NCBI GenBank assembly: GCA_040754335.1
Contig: JBFMCV010000001.1
Span: 1 to 64,000, forward strand
Direction: 5' to 3'
DNA from: Thermodesulfobacteriota bacterium
GTDB taxonomy: Bacteria; Desulfobacterota_D; UBA1144; Nemesobacterales; UBA2774
DNA: 64,000 nt
A model generated the notes under the pieces. The model searched no databases. It was not told the DNA's origin and saw nothing but the letters and a program-made list of their open reading frames with translations. A program made the translations under genes and the position numbers. Within the stretch, counting starts at the first letter, position 1, and every line of letters begins with the position of its first letter. Positions 6,701 to 16,474 of this stretch are shown here, piece by piece.

Positions 6701-7847
6701 GTCTTCCGCCAAGCTCACGGTTTCGAGGAAGACCGTCCTTAAGAAAGGGGACAAGATAACGGAAGAGGTGTTAAAGACTATCCCCTTCGAGAAGTTTGCC
6801 GATATAACTATCGAAAGGGGAGACGAGGCGGAGGCGGAGATAAAGCGTATTATCGAAAGGACGCTCGAACAGATAGACCTCACTAACGTAGTCTACGATC
6901 AGAGGATCTCCAAGCTGACCAAGCCCGACGAGCTCCCGCCCGGCGTCCTCAAGGTGGTAAAGGTGAATATCGCCGTAAAGAGGAAGCTCCAGGTCGGAGA
7001 TAAAATGGCCGGAAGGCACGGGAACAAGGGTGTAATCTCCAAGATTCTTGCCGAGGAGGATATGCCCTATCTGCCTGACGGAACGCCCGTCGACATGATA
7101 CTCAATCCTTTGGGCGTGCCCTCCAGGATGAACGTCGGCCAGGTATTGGAGACTCACCTGGGCTGGGCCGCAAAGGAGCTCGGCAACCAGATAAACGAGA
7201 TAATGGAAAGGGAATTCAGTCCCCAGGCATTGAAGGCGAAGCTGAAAGAGATATATAAATCCACCGGCACGGAAAAGCTGATCGACAAGATGGATGACGA
7301 CGACGTTCTTTCCGTGGCCAGGAGGCTCCGGAGCGGCATACCGGTCAAGTCCCCGGTATTCGACGGGGCGTCGGAAGAAGAGATCAAGCACATGCTGGCC
7401 GCGACGGGCCTGCCGGACGACGGCAAGACCATACTCTTCGACGGACAGACGGGTGAGCCGTTCGACCAGAAAGTAACGGTTGGCGTTATGTACATGCTGA
7501 AGCTCCATCACCTCGTGGAGGAGAAGATCCACGCTAGGGCGATCGGACCGTACTCGCTCGTCACGCAGCAGCCGCTCGGCGGAAAGGCACATTTCGGAGG
7601 CCAGCGCCTCGGGGAAATGGAGGTCTGGGCGCTCGAAGCGTACGGGGCTTCGTACACTCTGCAGGAATTTCTGACAGTAAAATCGGACGACGTGATAGGC
7701 AGAACCAGGATTTTTGATTCGATCGTCAAGGGCGATATGAATTTCGAGCCGGGCCTGCCGGAGTCGTTCAAGGTCCTTCAAAAGGAGCTCCAGGCGCTCG
7801 CTCTGGACGTCGACCTTCTCGAGGAAGAAGAACAGGGCAGGAATTGA
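3735..7847 (+). CDS. rpoB: RNA polymerase beta subunit
   Basis: This 1370-residue protein is the beta subunit of RNA polymerase. The rifampicin pocket (about residues 519-545) reads [18 protein letters not shown] followed by LSALGPGG, with the positions equivalent to E. coli D516, H526 and S531 all wild type. The catalytic-region motif [15 protein letters not shown] lies near residue 1088, and the C terminus has the switch/clamp motif [13 protein letters not shown]. The start is taken as TTG 3735, because no early ATG or GTG is in frame and GGGGGT precedes it at suitable distance. rpoC follows after about 25 bases. Confidence 0.98.
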
Positions 7848-12036: not shown

Positions 12037-14748
12037 ATGCCTGACGAAAATAAAACCCAAATGGATAAGGTCTATGATCCGAAGAAGGTTGAAGAGAAGT
12101 GGTACGCCGACTGGATCGAAAAGGGTTACTATAAGTCGTCGACGTCGTCGGGTCAAAAACCCCCTTATTCCATCGTAATCCCTCCTCCGAACGTGACGGG
12201 GTCCCTCCACATCGGACACGCTCTCAACAACACGCTCCAGGACATCCTCATACGCTGGAAGAGGATGAAGGGGTCGGACGCCCTATGGGTTCCCGGCACA
12301 GACCACGCCGGTATAGCGACGCAGATGATGGTGGAGCGCGAGCTCGAGAAGGAAGGCACGTCCAGGGTGAAGATGGGCAGGGGCGCCTTCGTCGAGCGGG
12401 TCTGGAAGTGGAAGGAGGAGTCGGGCGATACGATCACGCGCCAGTTAAGGCGCCTGGGCGCTCTCCCGGATTGGGAAATGGAGCGGTTCACCATGGACGA
12501 AGGGCTTTCTCACGCGGTGAGGAAGGTATTCGTCGACCTCTACAATGAGAAGCTCATATACAAGGACAAGAGGCTCGTCAACTGGGACCCGAAGCTCTGC
12601 ACGGCGATCTCCGATCTCGAGGTCGACCAGCGCGAGGTATCGGGGCATTTCTGGCATTTCAAATATCCTATCGAGGGCAGAAAGAACGAATTCATAACGG
12701 TCGCAACAACGAGGCCCGAGACGATGCTCGGCGACACCGCCGTCGCTGTGCATCCGGACGATGCGCGTTACAAGCACCTCGTCGGGAAGAACGCGGTTCT
12801 CCCGCTTGCCGAGAGGCCCATACCGATAATCGCGGACGAATACAGCGACCCCGAGAAGGGGACGGGGGCGGTGAAGATCACCCCGGCCCACGACTTCAAC
12901 GACTTCGAGGTCGGGCGTCGGCACGGCCTCCCGATGATAAACATATTCGACGAGACCGCCCGCCTTAACGACAACGCCCCCGCTAAATACAGGGGGCTCG
13001 ACAGGTTCGAGGCGAGGAAGCGCGTGATTGAGGACATGGAGGCTCTCGGCTTACTCGACAAGGTGGAAGATACCCGGCACACGGTCCCATACGGAGACAG
13101 GTCGGGCGCGGTGGTCGAGCCCTGGCTCACGGACCAGTGGTACGTTGACGCGGCGACCCTCGCTGTGCCCGCGATAAAGGCCGTGGAGGAAGGGAGGATA
13201 AGGTTCGTCCCTAAATACTGGGAGAGCACTTATTTCGAGTGGCTTAAGAAAATAGAGCCCTGGTGCATATCCCGCCAGCTCTGGTGGGGTCATCAGATAC
13301 CGGCCTGGTACGCGCCCGATGGGGAGATATTCGTCGCTCTTACGGAAGAAGAGGCGCAGAAGGCTGCGAAAGAGCATTACGGAAAGGAAACGGAATTGAA
13401 GAGGGACCCTGACGTCCTCGATACGTGGTTCTCGTCCGGGCTCTGGCCGTTCTCGACGCTCGGGTGGCCCGAAGAAACACCCGAGCTCAAGAGATACTAT
13501 CCGACGAGCGTACTCGTCACGGGGTTCGACATAATCTTCTTCTGGGTCGCGCGCATGATCATGCAGGGACTCCACTTTATGGGTGAGGTGCCGTTCAGGG
13601 AAGTCTACATACACGGGCTCATTAGGGACGAAAAAGGGCACAAGATGAGCAAGACCCGCGGGAACGTCATAGACCCCCTCGACGTGATAGAAGAAAACGG
13701 GGCCGACGCCTTGAGGTTCAGCCTGACCGCTCTCGCCACTCAGGGGAGGGACATAAAGCTCTCCATGCCAGTCATTCAGGGCTACAGGAACTTCATAAAC
13801 AAGATATGGAACGCCTCCCGCTTCCTCATAATGAACCTCGGGGAATACGACGACAGCGTAAAAATTCCAGACGACGAGCTTTCCACGTACGATAAGTGGA
13901 TACTCATGAAGCTGAACGAAACTGTAAAAGAGGTGGGCGACTCGTTCGAGGGCTATGAATTCGACAAGGCGGCGGGTGCCATATACAAGTTCTTCTGGTC
14001 GGAATACTGCGACTGGTATATAGAGTCTGTAAAGCCTGTGCTATACGGGGACGACCCACAAGGGAAGCAAAGGACGAAGGGCGTCCTCGTGCGTGTGCTC
14101 AAGACCGCATTACAATTGCTTCACCCGATTGCCCCCTTCATATCGGAAGAGCTCTACCAGAGGCTCCGCGTGTTCGGGGTTGAACTTAACGCCGTCGACG
14201 GCGGCGCTGCGGAGAGCATAGTGGTAAGCTCGTTCCCCGAATGTAACGAAACCCAGATCTTCCGCGACGAGCACGACGAGGTCGAGCTTATGAAGGAGAT
14301 CGTCGTCGGGATAAGGAACCTCCGGGCAGTGATCGGGCTCCACCCGTCCGAGAAGGTGAGCGTCGTGCTTCTTCCCGAGAGCGCGAAGGCGCGTAAGCAG
14401 ATAGAGGCCAACAGGGGCTTCATACTCAGCCTTGCGTCACTCTCCGGGTTCGAGATCGCGAAGAAAGACAAGCCTAAAAAGGCAATCGCCCAAGTCATAC
14501 CGGGCGTCGAGATATTCCTCCCAGTCGAAGGGCTCATCGATGTCGGGAAAGAGACCGAGAGGATAAAGAAAGAGATAGGCAAGATTTCCAAAGACCTTGA
14601 ACGAACCGAAAAGAAGCTCTCCAACCCCGAATTCCTCGAACGCGCCCCCGAAGAGGTCGTCCAGAAAGAGCGCGCAATCTTCGAGGAGCTATCCTTTCAG
14701 ATAAAGAAGATGGAAGACGTGCTCAACAAGCTGAGCGAGATAGGTTAG
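12037..14748 (+). CDS. valS: Valine-tRNA ligase
   Basis: This 903-residue class I aminoacyl-tRNA synthetase charges tRNA-Val. Visible features are PPPNVTGSLHIGHALNN with HIGH at residues 58-61, the CP1 editing domain with TTRPETMLGDTAVAVHP, WCISRQLWWGHQIPAW, and KMSKT at 536-540 in place of KMSKS. A C-terminal coiled coil (last about 70 residues, charged heptads) is typical of ValRS. ATG 12037 lacks an evident ribosome-binding site; ATG 12061 is an alternative. It directly follows rpoC, instead of the rpsL-rpsG genes commonly found there. Confidence 0.96.
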   Translation: MPDENKTQMDKVYDPKKVEEKWYADWIEKGYYKSSTSSGQKPPYSIVIPPPNVTGSLHIGHALNNTLQDILIRWKRMKGSDALWVPGTDHAGIATQMMVERELEKEGTSRVKMGRGAFVERVWKWKEESGDTITRQLRRLGALPDWEMERFTMDEGLSHAVRKVFVDLYNEKLIYKDKRLVNWDPKLCTAISDLEVDQREVSGHFWHFKYPIEGRKNEFITVATTRPETMLGDTAVAVHPDDARYKHLVGKNAVLPLAERPIPIIADEYSDPEKGTGAVKITPAHDFNDFEVGRRHGLPMINIFDETARLNDNAPAKYRGLDRFEARKRVIEDMEALGLLDKVEDTRHTVPYGDRSGAVVEPWLTDQWYVDAATLAVPAIKAVEEGRIRFVPKYWESTYFEWLKKIEPWCISRQLWWGHQIPAWYAPDGEIFVALTEEEAQKAAKEHYGKETELKRDPDVLDTWFSSGLWPFSTLGWPEETPELKRYYPTSVLVTGFDIIFFWVARMIMQGLHFMGEVPFREVYIHGLIRDEKGHKMSKTRGNVIDPLDVIEENGADALRFSLTALATQGRDIKLSMPVIQGYRNFINKIWNASRFLIMNLGEYDDSVKIPDDELSTYDKWILMKLNETVKEVGDSFEGYEFDKAAGAIYKFFWSEYCDWYIESVKPVLYGDDPQGKQRTKGVLVRVLKTALQLLHPIAPFISEELYQRLRVFGVELNAVDGGAAESIVVSSFPECNETQIFRDEHDEVELMKEIVVGIRNLRAVIGLHPSEKVSVVLLPESAKARKQIEANRGFILSLASLSGFEIAKKDKPKKAIAQVIPGVEIFLPVEGLIDVGKETERIKKEIGKISKDLERTEKKLSNPEFLERAPEEVVQKERAIFEELSFQIKKMEDVLNKLSEIG

Positions 14749-14800
14749 ATTATAAATCACTCAAATCTGTCTTGGATTTTCTCGCTACCCGCAAAAGCCA

Positions 14801-14932
14801 TTAGCGCCTTTCAAGCTCCCGCTCCATCGCGTCGAGCACAATCTTGCTCATAGCGCAGTTGTGCTTTTTTGCCCTCATTTTGAGGCGCTTGTGCAAGGCG
14901 TCGGGGGTGTTTTTAATTTGAAGGTTTGCCAT
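14801..14932 (-). CDS. Small ribbon-helix-helix antitoxin-like protein (orphan)
   Basis: A 43-residue frame on the minus strand starts MANLQIKNTPDALHKRLKMR and ends with IVLDAMERELERR. The N-terminal strand, ANLQIKN-P--LH-RL-RA, followed by a helix-turn-helix with S-IV-DA, is the pattern of FitA/VapB-type ribbon-helix-helix antitoxins. These bind operator DNA as dimers and neutralise PIN-domain toxins. No toxin follows: its TAA overlaps an ATG (TAATG), but that second frame ends after 14 codons and shows no PIN motif. The gene is convergent with valS, 52 bases away. Family assignment is from pattern only. It may be a remnant or a solitary regulator. Confidence 0.72.
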   Translation of the reverse strand: MANLQIKNTPDALHKRLKMRAKKHNCAMSKIVLDAMERELERR

Positions 14933-15055
14933 ATCATGACGATAGCGCTTTATTATAATGACGACAACATGCTAAAGAAAGAGGGTCAAATAGATAATCT
15001 ATTCAGAGAGTAGAAACCTGTGCTGGTAAGATAATATGAGTATTTTTCAGCTGTG

Positions 15056-16474
15056 TCACTCCCCGAAAAGGCCCAACTGTTTTTGTTTGGTCTTCTTGAG
15101 GTCGGTTAGCTCGACGGGGTATCTGCCGGAGAAGCAGGCGTTGCAGAAGCTCTCTGTGCCGTTCATCTTCTTGGTGTCGTCGACCGCCTTCATTACGCCT
15201 TCGAGGCTTAAATAACCCAGTGAATCGGATGTTATGTACTTTCTTATCTCGTCAATATCCAAAGAATTGGCGATCAACTCTTCCTTGAGCGGCGTGTCTA
15301 TGCCGTAATAGCACGAGAACTTCGTCGGGGGCGAGCTTATTCTCATATGTACTTCCTTCGCTCCGGCCGCGCGCACCATCTTCACTATCTTCCTCGACGT
15401 TGTCCCCCTCACTATAGAGTCGTCCACTATCACGACCCTTTTGCCTTCGAGCACTTCCTTTATCGCGTTCAGCTTGAGCCTAACGCCGAAGTTCCTTATC
15501 GACTGCTGGGGCTCTATGAACGTCCTCCCTACGTAGTGGCTCCTAAGTAGCCCCAATTCGAGCGGGAGCCCGGATTCCTCGGAGAACCCCATGGCCGCGG
15601 GCACACCGGAATCAGGGACAGCGACGATTATATCCGCGTCGGCTGGCTGCTCTATTGCGAGCTGCTTTCCTAGTGCCCTCCTCACCTGGTACACGTTCCT
15701 TCCCGTCTGGAAGCTGTCGGGCCTCGCGAAATAGATGTATTCGAATACGCAGTATGCGTGCCTGGCCTCCGGGAAGGGCTTGAACGACTCGGTGCCGTTT
15801 TCATTCACTACGACTATCTCGCCCGGCTCTATCTCCCTGACAAACTCGGCCTCTATGAGATCGAAAGCGCAGGTCTCGGACGCGAACACGACCGAGTCCC
15901 CGAGCTTGCCCATGACGAGAGGCCTGAACCCGTAGGGGTCCCTCACTGCTATCATGGCTTCGGGCGTGAGGAAGAGGAGCGAATAGGCCCCCTTGCACTT
16001 GGCAAGGGCTTCTACGATCCTCTGGAGGAGGGTCTCTTCTTTCGATTTCGCGATTAAATGTACGATGACTTCTGTGTCCGTCGTGGACTGGAATATCGCG
16101 CCTTCGGCTTCGAGCTCTTCTCTCAATGTCCTCGCGTTAGTCAGGTTGCCGTTATGCGCAATGGCGAGGGCCCCGCGGAAATAGTTGATGACGATGGGCT
16201 GCATGTTCTTCGCCTGGCTCGAGCCCGTGGTCGAGTAGCGCACGTGCCCGATCGCGTTCTGCCCCGTGAGGTGCGATAGTATGTCTTCCGTGAAAATGTC
16301 GGAGACGAGACCCATGGCGCGGTGGTTGTGGAGGTTTACGCCGTCAGAGGTTACGATGCCGGCGCTTTCCTGTCCCCTGTGCTGGAGCGCATGAAGCCCC
16401 AGGTATGTGAGGTTTGAAGCCTCGACATGACCGTAGATGCCGAATACGCCGCACTCTTCTTTAAGCTTTGGCAT
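15056..16474 (-). CDS. purF: Amidophosphoribosyltransferase
   Basis: This 472-residue protein catalyses the first committed step of purine synthesis, PRPP plus glutamine to phosphoribosylamine. The Ntn-type glutaminase has a short propeptide (MPKLKEE) before Cys8, the presumed nucleophile after cleavage, then GVFGIYGH and [13 protein letters not shown]-like RYSTTGSS. The PRPP loop reads [14 protein letters not shown]. Cysteines in [14 protein letters not shown] and [10 protein letters not shown] suggest the Bacillus-type iron-sulfur enzyme. The start overlaps the end of purL by 14 bases, so both are in one operon. Confidence 0.97.

Follow-up and report, generated by a model that had tools for sequence, protein, structure and literature searches.

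A minus-strand frame between valS and purF is probably what remains, after decay, of a type II toxin-antitoxin locus (FitAB/VapBC kind). We interpret it as a degenerating orphan antitoxin, retained for some time as a DNA-binding protein that had no toxin. The frame lies in the window, by which we mean the whole stretch of DNA analysed (64,000 nucleotides from a Thermodesulfobacteriota bacterium). The argument draws on the RHH (ribbon-helix-helix) domain of the frame, on related genomes that carry an intact module or a longer antitoxin at the same site, and on the pattern of substitutions between the window and its congener G002.

An RHH frame beside valS

The coordinates of the locus are given in Table 1. 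The frame encodes 43 amino acids (MANLQIKNTPDALHKRLKMRAKKHNCAMSKIVLDAMERELERR). In a Pfam profile search it matched PF22513 (FitA-like_RHH) with an E-value of 4e-7 and 30.3 bits, against a curated cut-off of 27; in a six-frame search of the genome the same frame scored 28.8 bits. Its score places the frame among the FitA-like RHH domains, and the FitA/VapB-like antitoxin first recognised by a sequence-only reading is borne out by the profile search that the same reading proposed. So is the position claimed for it, as valS adjoins the frame. The neighbours are presumably valS and purF; we recognised both genes from their sequences, without a family search.

Table 1. Features of the antitoxin locus and its neighbours in the window.
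Feature	Position	Strand	Basis or remark
valS, convergent neighbour	12037..14748	+	Name by sequence recognition; stop 1 bp away from the stub
Second TAA, closing the 60-codon frame common with G002; 3' junction where tail and PIN gene are missing	14750..14752	-	
16 in-frame codons behind the stop, WLLRVARKSKTDLSDL, stub of the toxin-binding tail	14753..14800	-	13 of 16 identical to the G002 tail
TAA at antitoxin codon 44, ending the antitoxin within the old gene	14801..14803	-	Codon-by-codon comparison with G002
Antitoxin frame, predicted N-terminal DNA-binding half of a FitA/VapB-type antitoxin	14801..14932	-	PF22513; same-site identity with G002; stop included
Promoter/operator remnant	14933..14968	-	Matrix from 25 PIN-paired relatives
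Sole retained CATG box of three 11-bp-phased boxes	14935..14938	-	
-10-like TATCGT	14939..14944	-	Start codon 6 bp beyond
-35-like TTGTCG	14962..14967	-	17-bp spacer to the -10-like element
purF, upstream neighbour, same strand as the antitoxin frame	15056..16474	-	Name by sequence recognition

The RHH core residues are retained (Q5, K7, N8, P10, L13, R16, A21, S29, A35 and E39). At the same site in G002 there is a frame with which 28 of the 43 residues (65%) are identical, and the conservation among relatives that had been called for is thus present. On an RHH profile of the family, built from 27 relatives that themselves score 75.6-98.1 bits, the 43-mer scored 75.1 bits and the RHH domain of G002 82.3 bits. 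The fairer control is to leave profile members out before scoring them. Four of the 27 were treated in this way and scored 73.6 (the PIN-paired antitoxin of G005), 77.0, 86.1 and 91.6 bits. Since the G005 antitoxin then falls below the 43-mer, the RHH domain of the window is not visibly worn.

Other searches added little. An NCBIfam search gave matches only far below the cut-off, and a Pfam HicB match was also below cut-off. PADLOC had no family for the 43-aa frame, the G002 frame, the G005 antitoxin or the G005 toxin. No antitoxin paralogue was found in the window's genome, G000 (3.26 Mb), where the PF22513 match is the sole one of its kind. A 50-aa frame on the plus strand (14861-15013) lies antisense over the antitoxin start; it is a mechanical open reading frame and probably a chance one.

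The toxin and the toxin-binding tail are missing

No PIN match was found downstream of the 43-aa frame, where the stub is followed after 1 bp by the valS stop, and the window locus therefore lacks the PIN toxin of a FitAB/VapBC module. PF01850 had one match in G000, within a 353-aa frame; G001-G003 have counterparts to this frame, 342-352 aa long. In G000, an assembly of 20 contigs that is 98% complete and so leaves a small gap, no PIN gene of VapC size was detected. The frame is thus an orphan antitoxin, that is, an antitoxin-type gene without a cognate toxin in its genome.

The tail is reduced too. Of the toxin-wrapping tail, which has the motif DLG..AA.LL.EER..R in this family, 16 codons are left, behind the stop. 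The antitoxin has 43 residues, against 76-109 in 25 PIN-paired relatives (76-82 in 22 of them). In FitAB, according to PMC3920265, the operator is bound through the RHH part; the toxin stabilises the complex without contacting the DNA. PMC3384007 describes the Shigella VapBC antitoxin, which has an AbrB-type rather than an RHH N-terminus; its tail wraps the toxin from residue 46, with an arginine reaching the active site. The paper describes an arginine contact of this sort for FitAB as well. By this comparison the predicted 43-mer keeps nothing known to bind toxin and, if expressed, would most likely act as a DNA-binding protein only.

These observations bear on a possible anti-addiction role, in which the antitoxin would neutralise related VapC toxins from mobile elements. 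Such a role is discussed for orphan antitoxins in general in PMC7354431, but here we judge it very improbable. The toxin-wrapping tail is shortened in the 60-aa form of G002 and gone from the 43-aa form. Moreover, no relative was found in 72,556 plasmid records at E 1e-4 (query, G005 antitoxin) or in 50,697 phage records at E 0.01 (query, window frame).

A stop codon within the old antitoxin gene

Codon 44 is TAA in the window and a glutamate codon in G002. The antitoxin of G002 has 60 codons, with the C-terminal end ...EWLGRVSKKSKTDLSDL, and the 60-codon frame of the window aligns with it to the same final TAA with zero indels. Likewise, a genome search with the 60-mer reports one TAA within the 60-aa match at the window locus.

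In the sequence TAATG, the TAA at codon 44 overlaps an ATG that opens a frame of 14 codons. Both features are present as the sequence-only reading described them. The interpretation of TAATG as the coupling point of an old toxin gene has to be given up. Behind the TAA, the phase of the antitoxin itself has 13 of 16 residues in common with G002; the corresponding figure for the out-of-phase frame is 9 of 14. The antitoxin frame continues past the TAA and hence TAATG, which lies within the old antitoxin gene, is not the old coupling point. The antitoxins of the PIN-paired relatives extend at least 33 codons further (22 of 25 measure 76-82 aa), and it is at their ends that the toxin genes begin; in G005 the start of the toxin gene overlaps the antitoxin end by 4 bases. 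Most likely the conserved antitoxin frame, being free of indels, gives rise to the 14-codon frame as a by-product, although the stretch is too short to settle the point. Against this, G002 also has an out-of-phase frame of 14 codons that begins with ATG, though there it overlaps no stop.

The same site in related genomes

Comparison of the valS/purF site among relatives, which had been suggested as a check, places a PIN toxin gene there in G005 and none in the window or G002. G005, a member of the same family (locus L041, matching Candidatus Dadabacteria bacterium SJ427), has a complete module of a 78-aa antitoxin and a 132-aa PIN toxin. The congener G002 (locus L032, matching Candidatus Dadabacteria sp. 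RBC041 at 100% identity) has the 60-aa antitoxin alone, without toxin and without the toxin-binding tail. In G002, purF and valS are on separate contigs and the site is visible from the valS side only. Another congener, G003, gave no antitoxin match at its purF-valS site.

Matches to the 43-mer at E <= 0.01 occur in 6 of 60 genomes, the window's own included, and 4 of 43 genomes of the order match the 60-mer at E <= 1e-6. The purF C-terminus was found in 21 of 23 genomes searched and in 13 of 15 within the window's family; in G001 and G009 neither the end of purF nor that of valS was found. The 13 same-family genomes comprise one with the full module (G005), two with a truncated antitoxin and no toxin (the window and G002) and ten with no antitoxin match. 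In other families, none of eight genomes had an antitoxin match within the stretch fetched, which in G017 did not include a recognisable valS.

The purF-valS gap carries other open frames in several relatives (L012:414-1329, L014:1795-3222, L016:748-1500, L019:1795-2599 and L002:1630-2284) and so seems to tolerate insertion. By eye, the frames of G003 and G006 are alike, as are those of G008 and G010. The gap frames of G002 and G003, the two examined, had no Pfam match at E 0.01.

Both G002 and the window lack the family tail (DLGVSAASLLEEER... in G005) from the identical point, just before valS, which points to one shared deletion. The valS genes of G002 and G003 are 89.8% identical in bases; identity to the window is 84.7% for G002 and 83.2% for G003. 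By this measure the window is the most distant of the three, and loss of the stub in G003 seems to be a later event. On the simplest reading, which rests on the one genome of G005, the genus of the window and that of G005 both descend from an ancestor with the module. Separate insertions at the same site are a possible alternative.

The wider family

A scan of named genomes gave 36 loci. Three (L065-L067) were set aside before counting; their tail differs, as does their downstream frame, which is also PIN-like by eye. A PIN profile, built from 24 of the downstream frames so counted, matched within about 1.1 kb in 25 of the 33 remaining loci, among which L035 and L036 are near-duplicates. Eight loci had no PIN match (L032, L038, L039, L050, L054, L057, L061 and L064). 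This is an upper count of toxin-less loci because the contig of L039 ends 474 bases on, a PIN fragment matches weakly in L064 (E 0.15) and a frame in L057 resembles, by eye, a PIN of another type.

Two of the eight deserve description. In the Caldilineaceae locus L050 (3001-3234), a 42-aa RHH-only frame ends in a stop at the RHH boundary, without a PIN match, in an independent parallel to the window; the antitoxin frame behind that stop is undecayed. In L038 (3001-3273), the antitoxin tail runs directly into the apparent last residues of a PIN toxin (...SGVVVQNVR). Here, an internal deletion apparently took the toxin and left all three of the CATG boxes described below.

The promoter and a putative operator

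Upstream of the antitoxin, the PIN-paired loci have the consensus gTtgngngCATGCcnnnagCATGCTAntaTCATGCc, followed by ATG. The consensus looks like a -35/-10 promoter with its start point near the ATG itself, and would thus be leaderless. Three CATG boxes, at -6, -17 and -28 from the start codon, occur in 19 of the 25 loci and one or two in the remaining six; shuffled upstream DNA has 0.01 CATG box on average. The boxes overlap the promoter, and the last of them stands directly before the ATG. They are a putative operator. The three-box layout is found across Dadabacteria, Chloroflexi, Acidobacteria, Acidimicrobiia and Deltaproteobacteria (L033-L063, for example L041, L049, L052 and L060). A putative operator common to such distant lineages offers a sharp DNA target for testing.

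With a matrix trained on the 25 PIN-paired relatives, whose own scores are 22.7-44.0 bits, the promoter place in the window scored 13.0 bits, the best of 127,800 36-base places in the window. The place of the putative autoregulatory operator is therefore kept, but with one of three boxes retained; the other two box places read AGCG (14946-14949) and CATT (14957-14960). Judged by eye, the upstream stretch of G002 is some 2 bp shorter; it has no CATG box in register.

We scanned 31 genomes for the three-box pattern with its ATG, allowing at most one mismatch. There was no match in G000 or G002, one in G003 and the known one in G005. The G003 match (L081) is on the minus strand of contig C117 at 7777-7807, with its single mismatch at the ATG. 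The pattern misses the two-box module of G029 and its reach is thus limited. The result for G000 speaks against a regulon of the intact three-box site.

Selection on the truncated frame

Over the 43 codons, the window and G002 differ at 32 bases, of which 10, 3 and 19 are at codon positions 1, 2 and 3. When equally many changes were placed at random in 10,000 simulations, 0.9% of the runs changed no more residues than observed, and 0.05% had at least as many third-position changes. Because 38% stayed stop-free, openness of the frame alone says little. We can practically discount a chance open frame. The frame is short and one among many mechanical open reading frames, but its profile match is above cut-off, it has same-site homologues in G002 and G005, and its substitutions follow the codon.

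A pairwise codon model for the 43 codons gave an omega of 0.123 (LRT 16.4, p 5e-5), at a high dS of 1.2 (NG86); the control, valS, gave 0.05. For the 16 codons behind the stop omega was 0.28 and not significant (p 0.13). The frame is identical at 142 of 183 bases between the two genomes, without indels. Their upstream non-coding DNA gave no clear alignment (10 of 200 shuffles reached its score). By the codon model, the truncated frame shows purifying selection between the window and G002, and this selection would postdate the truncation if the truncation is common to both.

A branch model with three taxa was used to divide the estimate. With free branch lengths omega = 1 was rejected on neither branch (LRT 0.21 and 0.53). 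As these values are uninformative, lengths were fixed from 417 purF codons. Omega was then 0.33 on the window branch (p 3e-5 against 1) and 0.04 on the G002 branch (p 6e-10). With the purF lengths halved or reduced to 0.3-fold, the window branch became compatible with omega = 1 (p 0.15 and 0.68), whereas the G002 branch still rejected it (p 3e-5 and 0.004). Selection would thus have kept the toxin-less protein at least in the G002 lineage, firmly on that branch if the truncation is shared. Constraint in the lineage of the window itself appears weaker and is uncertain. The truncated form is known from these two genomes only.

For the window, a plain pseudogene is a serious possibility, though short of an even chance. 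The frame would be functionless here, and the constraint would belong to the G002 lineage or to the time before the stop. A stop lies within the old gene, one of three operator boxes is left, and the family profile gives the window RHH 75.1 bits against 82.3 for G002. Omega on the window branch is eight times that of G002, and omega = 1 is not rejected there with free or halved lengths. Conversely, the left-out, PIN-paired G005 antitoxin scores lower still (73.6 bits), the full purF lengths reject omega = 1 on the window branch (p 3e-5), and the RHH core residues are retained.

The frame may instead be a retained solitary regulator, although we regard this as rather unlikely. An expressed RHH dimer would repress one or a few promoters, and loss of the tail would be a paring-down rather than decay. 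Such a role fits the purifying selection, provided that a shared truncation puts this selection after the loss of the toxin. It also fits weak matches to ORF56, a small RHH protein of 55 aa (2k9i), and to the 44-residue chain of an antitoxin (7e4j), which is perhaps only a construct. L050 provides a second RHH-only form, in an unrelated genome, with a stop at the same boundary and no PIN, but its undecayed frame behind the stop fits recent loss equally well. The regulator's own operator is eroded, moreover, and no intact operator was found elsewhere in G000. Of the two outcomes first proposed for the locus, toxin loss appears to have happened, given the PIN gene at the same site in G005; survival as a regulator is possible, given an omega below 1.

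Proposed history of the locus

Decay of a FitAB/VapBC-kind locus, our preferred explanation, covers both a dead remnant and a working regulator in the window genome. We propose that one deletion, in the common ancestor of the window and G002, took out both the toxin and the tail that neutralises it. What was left of the antitoxin may then have persisted as a small DNA-binding dimer on CATG-type sites, first those of its own promoter. Such a dimer is about the size of the CopG/Arc-type repressors. In the window, a stop further cuts the 60-codon frame to the bare 43-residue RHH domain. The operator and the constraint would be weakening in this lineage and the gene heading for loss, which seems already complete in the congener G003.

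A more speculative version, which we think unlikely, is that the toxin-less antitoxin of the genus ancestor was taken over as a free-standing mini-repressor under strong selection (omega about 0.04 on the G002 branch). The window stop would have pared it to a minimal domain, by a route that may recur, as in the 42-aa Caldilineaceae form.

Comparison with known systems

The locus resembles FitAB and RHH-type VapBC modules in its RHH antitoxin domain, its operator-like promoter boxes and its same-site relative with an overlapping PIN gene. It differs in that the window lacks toxin gene and tail, has one box, and has an antitoxin that ends at the RHH boundary. CopG and Arc are stand-alone small RHH proteins. 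The window protein is likewise very small, with one RHH domain, and a four-sequence profile matched ORF56 (2k9i, 55 aa) at E 0.0018; unlike those proteins it is derived from an antitoxin, and its DNA binding and target are putative.

The closest likeness is to orphan antitoxins, antitoxin-like genes without a toxin. According to PMC7354431, these are reported from Klebsiella, M. tuberculosis, Acinetobacter and a Bartonella plasmid, and a high percentage of those in a Klebsiella survey cited there look degraded from intact modules. In the same review, orphan antitoxins are read as remnants, as regulators of other pairs or as serving anti-addiction. Orphan antitoxins are hence already well known, and their presence alone hardly tells debris from a working gene. 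A limited literature search found no paper that joins orphan antitoxins, purifying selection and toxin-antitoxin, though such papers may exist. The present case differs in its same-site intact module and seemingly shared truncation. Because the intact module, the truncated form and absence all occur at one chromosomal site, the locus allows an estimate of selection following the loss of the toxin. This estimate, from two genomes only and with one shared truncation assumed, favours a period of function without the toxin. What is less ordinary here is the apparent selection on a toxin-less antitoxin that has no neutralising tail.
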